A stretch of 64,000 nt of DNA. Origin: Thermospira aquatica (GTDB lineage: Bacteria > Spirochaetota > Brevinematia > Brevinematales > Thermospiraceae). How positions within the stretch are numbered: position 1 is the first letter of the stretch; the number at the start of each line of letters is the position of its first letter. The translations under genes were made by a program, and so were the position numbers. Positions 9,650 to 62,345 of the stretch are shown one piece after another. The stretch is from assembly GCF_023525255.1 (NCBI RefSeq), contig NZ_CP073355.1, positions 1,984,001-2,048,000 on the forward strand, written 5' to 3'. The notes beneath the pieces are model-generated. The model did no database searches. It saw only the letters and a list, made by a program, of their open reading frames with translations, and was not told the origin of the DNA.

Positions 9650-9695
9650 CGGTTGGCGAGCTTGTCGAGCCACGGTTGGCGAGCTTGTCGAGCCA
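9650..9695. repeat. 23-bp tandem array, 2 units
   Basis: Two perfect units of the 23-bp repeat also seen at 492-721 and 26754-26914, at the same place relative to the IS end and the transposase ATG (14 bp gap). Confidence 0.97.
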
Positions 9696-26753: not shown

Positions 26754-26914
26754 TGGCTCGACAAGCTCGCCAACCGTGGCTCGACAAGCTCGCCAACCGT
26801 GGCTCGACAAGCTCGCCAACCGTGGCTCGACAAGCTCGCTAACCGTGGCTCGACAGGCTCGCCAACCGTGGCTCGACAAGCTCGCTAACCGTGGCTCGAC
26901 AGGCTCGCCAACCG
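26754..26914. repeat. 23-bp tandem array, 7 units
   Basis: 161 bp, exactly 7 units (tggctcgacaagctcgcc + aaccg), with some units changed (gctaacc, caggctc). Flanked by CCAGTTCA and GAATTGG, the arms of the hairpin seen whole in copy 4. Confidence 0.97.
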
Positions 26915-36083: not shown

Positions 36084-37353
36084 CATTGTGTCAAGAAAAT
36101 TGTGTCTAGTCATAGGATAACCTCGCTGTGAATATTTTCTTTGGTGTATGAGTGTTGCTCACGATAGAGTTGAAAGTAATACTCCCAATTTTTTAACTTT
36201 CTTTTTAAGAACTTCTCATTTTGGTATCTTAATAACAGGTAAAGATATTTCTCAGCTGAAGCCTCGCTTTGACACATTTCCATTGTTTTTAATCTCCTTT
36301 TAAGTTCTTTAAAGAGTCTTTCCAGGGCATTGTTTGTATACACCATGCTTCGTATTCCTTCAGGTAATTCCATGTAAGTGAATATATTCTCTCTTATTGT
36401 CAAGAGGTTATTCATTAAGTTGGGATAGATATTTTTCCATTTTGTGTAAATTTCATAAACAATTGTTCTGCCTCCTGTTTGTCTTTGGCATGAAATACCT
36501 CTTTTATTTCAGTGGCAATGATATTTCTGTGTTGAACTCTCACTTTAGCCAGTATGTTTCTCATGACATGGACTACACAGGGCTGATACTTTGCGTGGGG
36601 ATATATCTCTGTTATGACGTTTTTCATACCACTTAAGCCATCAGAGACAATAAAATGAATCTGTTTGACACCTCTTTCTCTTATATCTAGCAAAATTTCC
36701 CGCCAGTTATAAGCACTTTCCATGCCTCCTGGTAGGTAGTATCCTAAAATCTCCCGTCTTCCCTCAGGTGTAATGCCTATAGCTACATATATTGATTCAT
36801 TTTCTACCCTATCTCTTGATAGGAAACACCATAGCATCCAGAAATACCACGGCATATTCTTCCATGAGAGGGCGACTACGCCACTTCTGAATCTCTTCTA
36901 TGCCTACCTGGCTTATCCTTGAGATGTTAGCATAAGAAATCTTTATTTCATAAAGCTCTTTTAAAACTTCTGCTATCTTCCTTGTTGACATTCCTGATAT
37001 CAACATAGCCCTGATTAATGCATCTAAGTCTTCTGTGATGCGTTTGCGATAGGGAAGAAGGGCACTTTTAAATCCATTATCCCTTGTTCTTGGAACACGT
37101 ATGGCTGTAAGCTCGCCAAAAGCTGTCTTTAAATCCCTTTCGTAAAAGCCATTGCCTTTTGTGGGAGGATTGTTTTCCAGGTAAATCTCTCTTTCCTCTT
37201 TTAACATACTCTCTAATACTTCCTTGACAATTGGTTTGAATAGCTCTAAAATATTCTTCGTCTCAATCATATCTGGCCTCCTGTGATAGTTTTATTTATA
37301 TTATCACAGGAGGTTATCTTTTTCCTACCAGACACAATTAAGTATACACTGCC
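36084..37353 (-). mobile_element. IS256-family insertion sequence, copy B
   Basis: 1270 bp, flanked by a perfect 8-bp duplication TAAGAAAA (36076-36083 and 37354-37361). It lies inside the family 2 transposase gene in opposite orientation, so it arrived after family 2. Confidence 0.96.
36110..37270 (-). pseudogene. IS256-type transposase, frameshifted
   Basis: Same protein as copy A. The first frame (37270-36809) runs through the point where copy A is broken and ends after FLDAMVFPIKR because of a 2-bp loss (aagaga to agaga context near 36820). A 1-bp loss in an A run near 36440 breaks KFIQKWKN. The lesions differ from those of copy A, so the two copies decayed independently from an intact parent. 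Confidence 0.92.
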
Positions 37354-41081: not shown

Positions 41082-41127
41082 GATTTCCTCCCTCTATACT
41101 GTAGGGAGAAAAAACGATTTTTTCAAG

Positions 41128-41164
41128 TTTTCATGAGAAGGGGATGGACCCCTTCTCATGAAAA
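41128..41164 (-). terminator. Long perfect hairpin after the outer-membrane protein gene
   Basis: TTTTCATGAGAAGGGG (41128-41143), loop atgga, and its exact complement (41149-41164): 16 uninterrupted base pairs. It lies 7 bp after the stop of the minus-strand gene and ends in an A/T-rich stretch; a terminator or mRNA 3' stabiliser. Confidence 0.75.
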
Positions 41165-41170
41165 GATATT

Positions 41171-42623
41171 TTAGAACTTGTAGTTTATACTGACGATCAT
41201 GGAAAACTTATCAAACAAATTTTTGCCACTGATGAGGTAGGGGAGACTTCCCTGACCCAGAACATTCTGAACAAAGGTATCGCTTATGACCCAATCGAGT
41301 GAAAAACCACCAAAATGCACGCTCAGACCAATCCGAGGAATAATGGTATGCTTTATGGTGGTGGAAGACTTGATATCTCGCACGTTCTCTGTGGTTCCAG
41401 TATAGCCAAAAGATGTTGTTGTTATACTTTGAATTTCTATAATATTCATAACTCCCATACGAAGAGAGAACCATTTTTTAAGAGTGACTTCCGCTCCTCC
41501 ATCGAGGATAGTATAGTTATCCGTTTGACTTCCCTGTTCTTTATCCTTATATTGATCGCTTCCTGTGGCCTGGTTTACAATAAACCATTCCTCACCTTTC
41601 AAAATAGTAAAATTGTTGAGTGAAACGTAGGTAAAAAATTGGTTGTTGGTATAGTTGATACCTGTACCAACTCCAATGGATTGAATGGAGAAGGGGTGAG
41701 TGTTTTTGTTTTTTTCTTCTCCCAGATCAATATAATCTCCATCACCATTAAGATCAGCGATAGCGGTGTAAACACTTGAAAGATTGAGATAGCCATAGGT
41801 GAGTATATTTTTCCATTCGAGATTTGGAGAGAGTTTTATTTTGGGATATACCTTCACCTCAATACCAAAATTCCCTTCACTTGTATGGAGTTGTTCTTGG
41901 GTATAGCCTGAAATTTCTGGAAACTCGGATTTTACCTGGTTTTTATACCCAGGGAGCCAAAGGCCCAGAGAAGCATCAATGGTTAAGGGTTGAAGAATAT
42001 CAATACTTGCTCCCGTTCGGATTTTTACAAAAGAAGCAAATACATCGCTCTGGAGTTTTGATTTGGTAGGATCAGCAGGGGTCGGAACATGTTCCGTGAC
42101 CGTTAAAGAAGAATAAGCAGCCACCGAGAGCCCCACATAGGGAGAGAAGGGGATTTTTCGGCTTCCGATGGTAAGGTCAAACCAGGGTAATCGGTCTCGA
42201 TAAGTTATTCCTGGGGGGTAAGAAGGGGGAGGAGTTCCTGCCTAGGTGGGAGGATTTGCTGCATTCACTTTAGAATAACTTTCTAGATAGTCCTCAGTTT
42301 GCTGATTAGGATTAATAAATAAGCCAACCGAGACCCACTCGGTGTTTATCACACCATAGGCATAGGAATCATTCCAATTTCCGGTAGAAATATAGGCAAA
42401 GGGTTCCCATCCCACCTCGTTTGGTAATCGGTAGATGAGAGCACCATTTTCAGGAACCAGAATGGGATCGTCAATAATCCAGCTCGCGCCCAACCAATTT
42501 TGATCAGAATAGTACACACCCAGTCCTGAAAGGCGAGCAAGAGACCCATACATACCACCAATAACACCAACCAATAACACCAACCAAAAACACCAACAAC
42601 CAACACAACGTTTGCTTTTTCAC
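41171..42623 (-). pseudogene. Outer-membrane beta-barrel-like protein gene with frameshift and amber stop
   Basis: The start GTG 42623 has AAGGAGG 7 bases upstream and encodes the signal peptide MKKQTLCWLLVFLVGVIG. A perfect 13-bp tandem duplication (42562-42587) then shifts the frame; with one copy removed the reading continues GGMYGSLARLSGLGVYY. In that frame there is one TAG (42244-42242, NAANPPT*AGTPPPS), after which the frame is open to 41171 and ends in SINYKF, a terminal aromatic residue typical of outer-membrane barrels. The body has alternating strands and an acidic loop DLNGDGDYIDLG. Two lesions make it a pseudogene unless the repeat is phase-variable. Confidence 0.8.
42562..42587. 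repeat. 13-bp perfect tandem duplication in signal peptide region
   Basis: Plus strand taacaccaaccaa twice. 13 is not a multiple of 3, so gain or loss of one unit switches the reading frame of the surrounding gene. Confidence 0.95.
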
Positions 42624-42720
42624 AGCTTTCCTCCTTGCTTTTTTTACCTCTTATGAGAATATTTTTTTTCTCTATTTTTATACGTTTTTTTGTTTCCTGA
42701 AGTGAAATTTTTTTCCTTAT

Positions 42721-43422
42721 TTAGGGAATTTCTACCTCCTGGAGAAAAGTATCTATCACATTGTCGGTGGTGATTCCTTCGGCTTCTGCCTCAAAGTTGA
42801 GAATGAGACGATGGCGAAGGATATCGTGAGCGGTATGTTTTACATCCTCTGGGATAACGTATCCACGTTCATCAAAGAGGGCTTCAACTTTTGCTGCTTT
42901 AATCCAGGCAATAGCCGCTCGTGGAGATGCGCCATAACGGATATAGTCTTTGTGAGTTTGGCGTGTTGCTTGAACAAGAGAAACAACATAGTCATAGATT
43001 TTTTCGTCAACATAAATTCGGGATACAAGCTTCTGGAGTTTCTGGATATCCTGTTTACTGGCAACTTTTTTGACAGTTGGTTCTAGTGTTCCTGTCATTC
43101 GGTGAAGGATACGTTTTTCTTCTTTGGCTGTGGGATAGGAAACTAAAACCTTCATATAAAAACGATCAATCTGAGCCTCGGGAAGAGGGTACGTTCCCTC
43201 GTGTTCAATGGGATTTTGGGTTGCCATAACAAAGAAAGGGGTAGGGAGATCATAGGTTGTATCCCCAAGAGTTACCGTCCGTTCTTGCATAGCCTCAAGA
43301 AGAGCTGATTGCACCTTCGCTGGTGCACGGTTGATCTCATCAGCGAGAACAAAATTCGTAAAAATAGGTCCTTTTTTAACCTCAAATTGCCCTGTCTGAA
43401 TGTTATAAATCATGGTCTCCAT
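42721..43422 (-). CDS. MoxR-type AAA ATPase, lacks Walker A (5'-truncated)
   Basis: 233 residues against about 310-330 in the family. It begins at METMIYNIQTGQFEVKKGPIF, matching a point about 90 residues into normal MoxR proteins. Walker B (VLADEINRAP), sensor 1 (VMATQNPIEHEGTYPLPEAQ) and the C-terminal lid (GASPRAAIAWIKAAK) are present, but the P-loop GxxGxGKT is missing; TAG lies just upstream in frame and no coding sequence precedes it. No DUF58 or VWA partner gene is adjacent. A promoter-like TTGCAA-N17-TACAAT sits just before it. Likely a remnant, possibly still expressed. Confidence 0.75.
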   Translation of the reverse strand: METMIYNIQTGQFEVKKGPIFTNFVLADEINRAPAKVQSALLEAMQERTVTLGDTTYDLPTPFFVMATQNPIEHEGTYPLPEAQIDRFYMKVLVSYPTAKEEKRILHRMTGTLEPTVKKVASKQDIQKLQKLVSRIYVDEKIYDYVVSLVQATRQTHKDYIRYGASPRAAIAWIKAAKVEALFDERGYVIPEDVKHTAHDILRHRLILNFEAEAEGITTDNVIDTFLQEVEIP

Positions 43423-43436
43423 CTTTAGCTAAAGAT

Positions 43437-43465
43437 ATTGTAGCATAAAGCAATTTTTTTTGCAA
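43437..43465 (-). promoter_or_regulatory. Promoter-like sequence before truncated moxR
   Basis: Minus strand TTGCAA (43465-43460), 17-bp spacer, TACAAT (43442-43437). ATG 43422 is only 14 bases after the -10 box. Confidence 0.5.
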
Positions 43466-47558: not shown

Positions 47559-48115
47559 TCTTTCCATCCATAAAAAACAACTCGTTCAGCAAGCTGACGG
47601 GCTTCCTCATCTGAAACCCACAAAGAAACAAGTTTTAAAGACGCAAGGAGGGATGTTCCTACTCCCTGCGAGGTGATAATATTCCCATCCACAACGACTG
47701 GTTCGTTTTTGTGTTTTCCTGAAGTTATTGAAGCTACGGTACCAGGATAACAGGTGAAGTTTCTCCCCTCTAAAACCCCTGCTCTATCCAGAAGAAGAGG
47801 AGCCGCACAAACAGCATACACCCACCTGGAAGCAGCTACAAAGCGCCTGATGACTTCCAGAAGATGTTGATTTTGGACAAGCTGGTTTACGCCGGGTCCT
47901 CCAGGCAAAAGAAGCGCATCAAACTCTTCAGTATGGATATCATCCATCCGCATAAATACCCTGTCTGCTTGCACTGTTATCTGATGACTTCCGGTAATTT
48001 CTTTCCCTCCTACTCCATACGTGATTACCTCAACTTGTGCCCGTCTCAAAATATCAATAGGAGTAATCGCTTCTACTTCTTCAAAATTTTGTCCCAGAAT
48101 AAGAGCTACTCTCAT
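47555..48115 (-). CDS. DJ-1/PfpI family protein
   Basis: 186 residues, class I glutamine amidotransferase-like fold: ALILGQNFEEVEAITPIDILRRA with the conserved Glu, LLLPGGPGVNQL, and the nucleophile elbow VYAVCAAPLLL with the reactive Cys; TSQGVGTSL at the end. Closest in pattern to YajL/DJ-1-type proteins implicated in protein deglycation or chaperone activity. AGGAGG precedes the ATG. Confidence 0.92.
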   Translation of the reverse strand: MRVALILGQNFEEVEAITPIDILRRAQVEVITYGVGGKEITGSHQITVQADRVFMRMDDIHTEEFDALLLPGGPGVNQLVQNQHLLEVIRRFVAASRWVYAVCAAPLLLDRAGVLEGRNFTCYPGTVASITSGKHKNEPVVVDGNIITSQGVGTSLLASLKLVSLWVSDEEARQLAERVVFYGWKD

Positions 48116-48138
48116 AGAGACCTCCTTTTGCTATGATC

Positions 48139-48597
48139 TTATGCCAAATCTCTTAAGGTAAAGTGCATGGGTACTGTTGAAACCTCGGGAAGAGACGGTT
48201 TTTCTGGGTTCCATACCAGCTTGATATTTTCCGCCTGATACTCCTCTGTATCCCGGATTACAAAAATTACCGTCAAAGGATCCCGCTGAGTCACGAGGAG
48301 GTAAGATTTTGGATACATGCGATGAATTTGCATCATCACAACCTGAAAAAATTTTTCATTGACAAGAATAGCGTAATCTGAATCCCTGTCAGTAAACGGA
48401 AAAGGAAGATTGTGGGTTTTGATGATGTCATCAATGAAGGCTCGAAGCTCAATATAGCTTGCTTTCTCTTCAGACTCGGGATAGTAGAAACGTGTCCGAA
48501 TACGTCCAAATTTTTTGTATTCTGACTTTACATAGTTAAGTGCCTCTTTTAGAAGCAGTTTTCCTGCTTTCGAGAGATGAAGTTCTTCTAGGGTCAT
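48139..48597 (-). CDS. Protein of unknown function (152 residues)
   Basis: Cytoplasmic in appearance, mixed alpha/beta (KLLLKEALNYVKSEYKKFGR at the N-terminus, YLLVTQRDPLTVIFVIRD later). I recognise no family. It starts 17 bp after the leuS stop with a GGAGG-containing leader (gaccaggagggccat in minus reading), so it is probably co-transcribed with leuS. Confidence 0.75.
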   Translation of the reverse strand: MTLEELHLSKAGKLLLKEALNYVKSEYKKFGRIRTRFYYPESEEKASYIELRAFIDDIIKTHNLPFPFTDRDSDYAILVNEKFFQVVMMQIHRMYPKSYLLVTQRDPLTVIFVIRDTEEYQAENIKLVWNPEKPSLPEVSTVPMHFTLRDLA

Positions 48598-62249: not shown

Positions 62250-62271
62250 ACTTCCTCCTTCAAAAGTATCC

Positions 62272-62345
62272 CTGCCCAGGCGGACGACAGGGTTTTCCAG
62301 GCTCCCCGATGGTTTATTCCATCCTCGCCAGTTGCCAGCGATAGA
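62272..62345 (-). ncRNA. ZTP (pfl-type) riboswitch upstream of glyA
   Basis: The minus-strand leader has the ordered features of ZTP riboswitches: a first helix with ACTGGCGA, an inner stem GGATGG-aataaa-CCAT followed by CGGGGAGC, a variable linker, and the highly conserved CCGCCTGGGC. This class senses ZMP/ZTP, purine intermediates that build up when 10-formyl-tetrahydrofolate is short, and glyA is a known target. After it, ATACTT and AAGTAT flank TTGAAGGAGG, so the ribosome binding site lies in a small hairpin loop; translational control is likely. Confidence 0.88.

Follow-up and report, generated by a model that had tools for sequence, protein, structure and literature searches.

Probable recent decay of a transcription unit that carries a tandemly duplicated signal sequence in Thermospira aquatica

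The window, as the 64-kb stretch of Thermospira aquatica DNA analysed here is called, lies in a genome assembled as one contig of 2,515,453 bp, which the assembly table lists as 99.81% complete and 0.03% contaminated. On its minus strand it carries omp, a gene for a predicted outer-membrane barrel, which follows a remnant of moxR and is itself followed by a hairpin and yggS (Table 1). The locus was compared with those of two genomes of the same genus, Brevinematales bacterium isolate SKW221 (JAOADA010000001; omp locus L010) and isolate Ch60 (JABLXN010000017; omp locus L011). Longinema margulisiae and T. aquatica are placed in one genus in the available text of a published report (PMC12236494). 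Both relatives have the gene order cation-efflux gene, Fe-S-domain gene (PF04060), moxR (322 codons), omp and yggS. Compared to both of them, about 610 bp are missing upstream of omp in the window, and with them the Fe-S-domain gene and codons 1 to ~91 of moxR.

Table 1. Features of the omp locus in the window and of the intact orthologues in two relatives
Feature	Position	Strand	Basis or remark
Promoter-like site of yggS, TTGAAA-17-TACAGT	41098..41126	-	also in SKW221 and Ch60
Hairpin of 16 pairs between omp and yggS, presumed end of the omp unit	41128..41164	.	hairpins also at the same place in SKW221 and Ch60
omp, a pseudogene with a frameshift and a nonsense codon, predicted to have encoded an outer-membrane barrel	41171..42623	-	ORFs, profile search, orthologue alignment
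In-frame TAG in omp	42242..42244	-	Phe or Tyr at the same column in the two same-genus orthologues
Array of three tandem 13-bp units (two the same, the third mismatched) within the signal-peptide codons; frame displaced by one	42557..42597	-	TRF
AGGAGG ribosome-binding site before GTG 42623	42630..42635	-	conserved in the genus
moxR remnant, codons ~92 to 322 kept, first ~91 lost	42721..43422	-	93% identical to SKW221
Deletion junction, 23 nt in place of the relatives' 631 and 636 nt	43414..43436	-	comparison with SKW221 and Ch60
Retained promoter-like site TTGCAA-17-TACAAT	43437..43465	-	conserved in SKW221 and Ch60 upstream of the Fe-S gene
Intact omp orthologue, SKW221	L010:8319-9752		477 aa
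Intact omp orthologue, Ch60	L011:9648-11078		476 aa

A first-pass annotation of this DNA had placed the start of omp at a GTG with a Shine-Dalgarno sequence and had claimed that a 13-bp tandem duplication shifts the frame behind it. Both claims were borne out. The start codon occupies 42623-42621 with AGGAGG at 42635-42630, and AAGGAGGA precedes the ATG of both same-genus orthologues as well. Frame 0 from the GTG gives a signal-peptide-like stretch and runs into a stop after 39 codons, whereas the mature protein is read in frame 1. The array between them was scored by TRF as a period of 13 bp with 3.2 copies and 96% match. Exact period-13 identity spans 42557-42587, which amounts to an 18-base self-match, and the mismatched third unit sits before the two identical ones in the direction of transcription. 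The annotation was thus right about two identical copies but had overlooked the third unit. It had also proposed that removing one unit would restore a continuous signal peptide and mature start; the two frames would indeed join, but two units would remain and a TAG farther downstream would persist. This TAG, also claimed by the annotation, was confirmed at 42244-42242, and the profile search of the genome with omp reported it as the one internal stop. TAG is an ordinary stop here, as the adjoining cation-efflux gene terminates in it. Beyond the array, omp aligns with its orthologues without another frameshift.

The array is well above chance. Besides three arrays of a 23-bp family, it is the sole exact tandem duplication with a period of 10-30 in the window. 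Ten windows simulated with a first-order Markov model held two such duplications in total, and a self-match of at least 17 was absent from all ten, compared to 18 in the omp array. When the unit was searched as a 15-mer with up to one mismatch, it was found at the omp site alone in the whole genome. The 23-bp family forms head-to-tail arrays at 492-721, 9650-9695 and 26754-26914; the unit has 159 sites (up to 2 mismatches) in the T. aquatica genome and none in SKW221 or Ch60, making it a repeat expanded in this lineage only.

An outer-membrane barrel is the likeliest reading of the omp product, and the annotation's view of a surface protein gene is plausible. The reading draws on a start that looks like a signal peptide by eye, a strand-rich structure model of low confidence and weak matches of distant homologues. 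The model, built for the intact Ch60 orthologue from a five-row alignment, shows a ladder of long strands with a mean pLDDT of 46.3 and a pTM of 0.54. A PopA-family porin-like profile (NCBIfam NF053618) matches five of the eight homologues weakly, the best at 36.2 bits against a cut-off of 150, and matches neither the window fragment nor either same-genus orthologue. PopA or TDE2508 was rejected as the identity of omp, as such matches occur only in distant homologues and far below the cut-off. The TonB-dependent receptor family TIGR01776, found for the window fragment at E 0.0047 and 14.9 bits (cut-off 468.8), was taken as chance. Against Pfam, the eight homologues together yielded no more than two isolated weak matches, to unrelated families (E 0.11 and 0.17), and the search for a solved relative returned none, its two matches having E values of 0.58 and 0.73.

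Homologues of omp are sparse. Including T. aquatica, matches were found in 9 of the 100 genomes searched. A profile search of 18 genomes of the class, again including T. aquatica, detected omp in 8, with one copy per genome; 7 of these copies are intact, and the only one bearing a stop is that of the window. No homologue was detected by this search in the other 10 class genomes, all from other families of the order, and omp can therefore be dispensable.

The damage upstream of omp is a lesion that the first-pass annotation did not report. The Fe-S-domain protein of the relatives is membrane-anchored, as judged by eye. Its gene was not found in the T. aquatica genome by a search that detects it in both SKW221 and Ch60. 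The moxR remnant has no stop over 229 codons, but the AAA_3 profile matches it from position 44 of 131 only, whereas the intact gene is matched from position 1 on. What is lost is the profile's N-terminal third, where AAA+ proteins have their P-loop. The genome holds no close second copy that could supply the missing N-terminus, as the only other moxR match is a paralogue with 49% identity. At the deletion junction lies a perfect 16-nt palindrome (43421-43436), the sole exact copy in the genome and without an exact copy in SKW221 or Ch60, which is possibly the scar of the deletion.

At the other end, RNA of the omp strand gives well-folded hairpins between omp and yggS in the window, SKW221 and Ch60 (z -7.0, -6.0 and -3.8, respectively). 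In the window and SKW221 the T-tail rule holds only on the plus strand, which is not that of omp, and in Ch60 it holds on neither strand. The hairpin would be the terminator of omp and the end of its unit, and the separate promoter-like site of yggS points to a boundary of the omp unit ahead of it. The Fe-S gene, moxR and omp would then share one transcript as a probable operon. The damage appears to span this one transcription unit, from promoter-like site to hairpin, with all three of its genes lost or damaged.

In the surrounding block, fourteen other genes shared with SKW221 or Ch60 match without internal stops, counting those L010 or L011 genes of at least 110 codons that the window matches. 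For the two outermost genes at the nifS end, the comparison was with SKW221 alone, and the genes that close the block on either side (leuS and one beyond the 1060-codon gene) were covered in part only. The count leaves out eight rows with 1-4 stops, in which moxR or a counted gene is read in an antisense frame, and a hemerythrin gene, which also has no place in the argument for decay. The relatives' hemerythrin-like gene is absent at 48115-48139 of the window, and a hemerythrin-like stretch with four stops lies at 1869223 of the genome. Hemerythrin was rejected as a further loss, since an intact homologue with 77% identity lies elsewhere in the genome (C1:1870111), next to that stretch. Also present in the window are a transposase gene of the Mutator family (PF00872) at 36110-37270, split into three pieces, and a ZMP/ZTP riboswitch on the minus strand at 62267-62345.

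Three lesions, intact counterparts in the relatives, a promoter-like site still in place and a gene in single copy are what the locus presents, and very probably it is a recently dead transcription unit, that is, a probable operon in recent decay. A pseudogene of a decaying operon would have an intact orthologue in relatives and several independent disabling lesions, and omp has both. Ancestrally, the layout would have been that of the relatives, with the first promoter-like site, the Fe-S gene, moxR, omp and the hairpin in this order and yggS behind a promoter-like site of its own. In the lineage of the window, selection on the omp unit was presumably lost. About 610 bp would have been deleted between a point just past the first promoter-like site and moxR codon ~92, and omp would have gained a nonsense codon as well as the 13-bp tandem duplication. 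This duplication probably arose through replication slippage on an imperfect 13-bp direct repeat, GTTGGTGTTTTTG adjoining GTTGGTGTTATTG. Because the first unit differs from the later ones by one base, such a repeat would have existed earlier, and slippage on it would explain both the place of the duplication and the length of its unit without a switch. The annotation had itself noted, with reserve, that decay is what the TAG speaks for, and the missing Fe-S gene and truncated moxR now add to that.

The age of the loss was estimated from the stops. Over the 461 codons of omp that follow the array, one neutral substitution per site would be expected to bring 62.3 changes to a stop, and the single stop corresponds to about 0.016 neutral substitutions per site since inactivation (95% 0.0004-0.09). 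Zero stops in the moxR remnant bound the loss of moxR at d < ~0.11. Since the dS of omp exceeds 2 to both relatives, with many other genes saturated, the inactivation of omp would be recent, its d being small beside this dS. In dN, the branch of omp is longer than the average branch of the two relatives by a factor of 2.5-2.7, with dS saturated, the window as the outlying branch and low power. This ratio exceeds those of 10 of the 11 other genes compared, which range from 0.9 to 3.8, and falls below that of carD (3.8), so we read it as no clear mark of relaxed selection. A lack of clearly visible relaxation would be expected after a recent loss, but it also weakens any argument for decay based on rates alone. 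The clean remainder of omp and the 93% identity of the moxR remnant fit recency, and they fit equally well a gene that was lately in use.

We consider it rather unlikely that the Fe-S-domain protein, MoxR and the barrel formed a functional unit, with a MoxR chaperone system serving the barrel, that was jointly lost when the role of the barrel ended. If the three genes do cooperate, their joint loss would hint at a MoxR-linked outer-membrane system in Brevinematales.

The annotation had offered the duplication as possible phase variation, in which slipped strands add or remove units of the array, translation of the outer-membrane protein is switched and the assembly records the OFF state. The array is real, its unit is not divisible by three, it lies in signal-peptide codons of the omp reading frame as a switch would, one unit fewer would join the signal-like and mature stretches, and there is a precedent in the Opa genes (PMC4534519), to which we return below. 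However, the rest of a phase-variable gene should be intact, and the TAG stays in frame at any copy number of the array. The array is only about 3 units long, its unit is confined to one site in the genome, and the genes upstream of omp are lost or truncated. A tract kept in relatives with varying copy number was not found either: the 13-bp array is absent from all seven intact homologues compared, each from another species. Over their first 150 bases, exact self-matches (period 4-30) reach at most 8 in these seven genes, compared to 18 in the window.

That self-match of 8 is an exact 8-bp tandem pair in the SKW221 omp signal codons, at gene bases 30-45 (L010 9708-9723, minus strand). Its position in the same region could speak for phase variation. 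However, when tiles of 150 nt were scanned for exact pairs with a period of 7-30, such pairs occurred in 14 of 837 from the window, 3 of 235 from L010 and 5 of 198 from L011; they also occurred in 52 of 2000 simulations of the 75-nt omp signal region of SKW221. The pair is within chance, and one such gene in seven is unremarkable. Given this pair, the omp signal region may be slippage-prone in other species too. All in all, slipped-strand phase variation appears improbable at this locus.

Sequencing or assembly error, with the native omp intact, is more improbable still. The lesions are seen in a single assembly, and any one of them taken singly may be an error of base calling or assembly. Against this, errors would have had to produce three unrelated types of lesion (a 13-bp unit, a substitution and a ~610-bp loss) within one probable transcription unit, while leaving the 14 other shared genes of the block free of internal stops in a nearly complete single-contig genome. 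Least credible of all is reuse of the remnants, in which the promoter-like site kept directly before the stop-free, 93% identical moxR remnant drives an N-truncated MoxR or a shortened outer-membrane protein, as moxR has lost the N-terminal third of AAA_3, its remnant's ATG has no clear Shine-Dalgarno sequence (by eye), neither the signal peptide nor the ~120 N-terminal residues are encoded in the open part of omp, and zero stops in moxR only set a bound on the age of its loss.

The omp locus carries a caution, which is that a signal sequence with a short tandem duplication is on its own no evidence of a switch. Here, what had looked like a phase-variable gene came to be read as an ordinary decaying one once the second lesion and the genes upstream were taken into account. 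The loci of SKW221 and Ch60 share with the window the gene order, the Shine-Dalgarno sequence, the promoter-like sites and the position of the hairpin; unlike the window, they have the Fe-S gene, a full moxR, an intact omp and no 13-bp array. In the Neisseria opa genes, as the available part of the source describes them, CTCTT repeats in the signal-peptide codons change the frame (PMC4534519). The omp gene resembles them in that frame-changing tandem units, of a length that is no multiple of three, lie among the signal-peptide codons of a predicted surface protein. It differs from their reversible switch in an array of about 3 units that occurs in one genome, with a nonsense codon downstream and neighbours partly deleted. 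A nearer parallel is found in the secondary variants of Xenorhabdus nematophila, which in the excerpted account are loss-of-function mutants of lrp, including three tandem duplications of 26-116 bp; they resemble phase variation and are described there as plain mutants with no genetic reversion (PMC6786866). Those lesions affect a regulator and arose in culture, whereas the ones reported here lie in an assembled genome and affect an outer-membrane protein gene with its neighbours.
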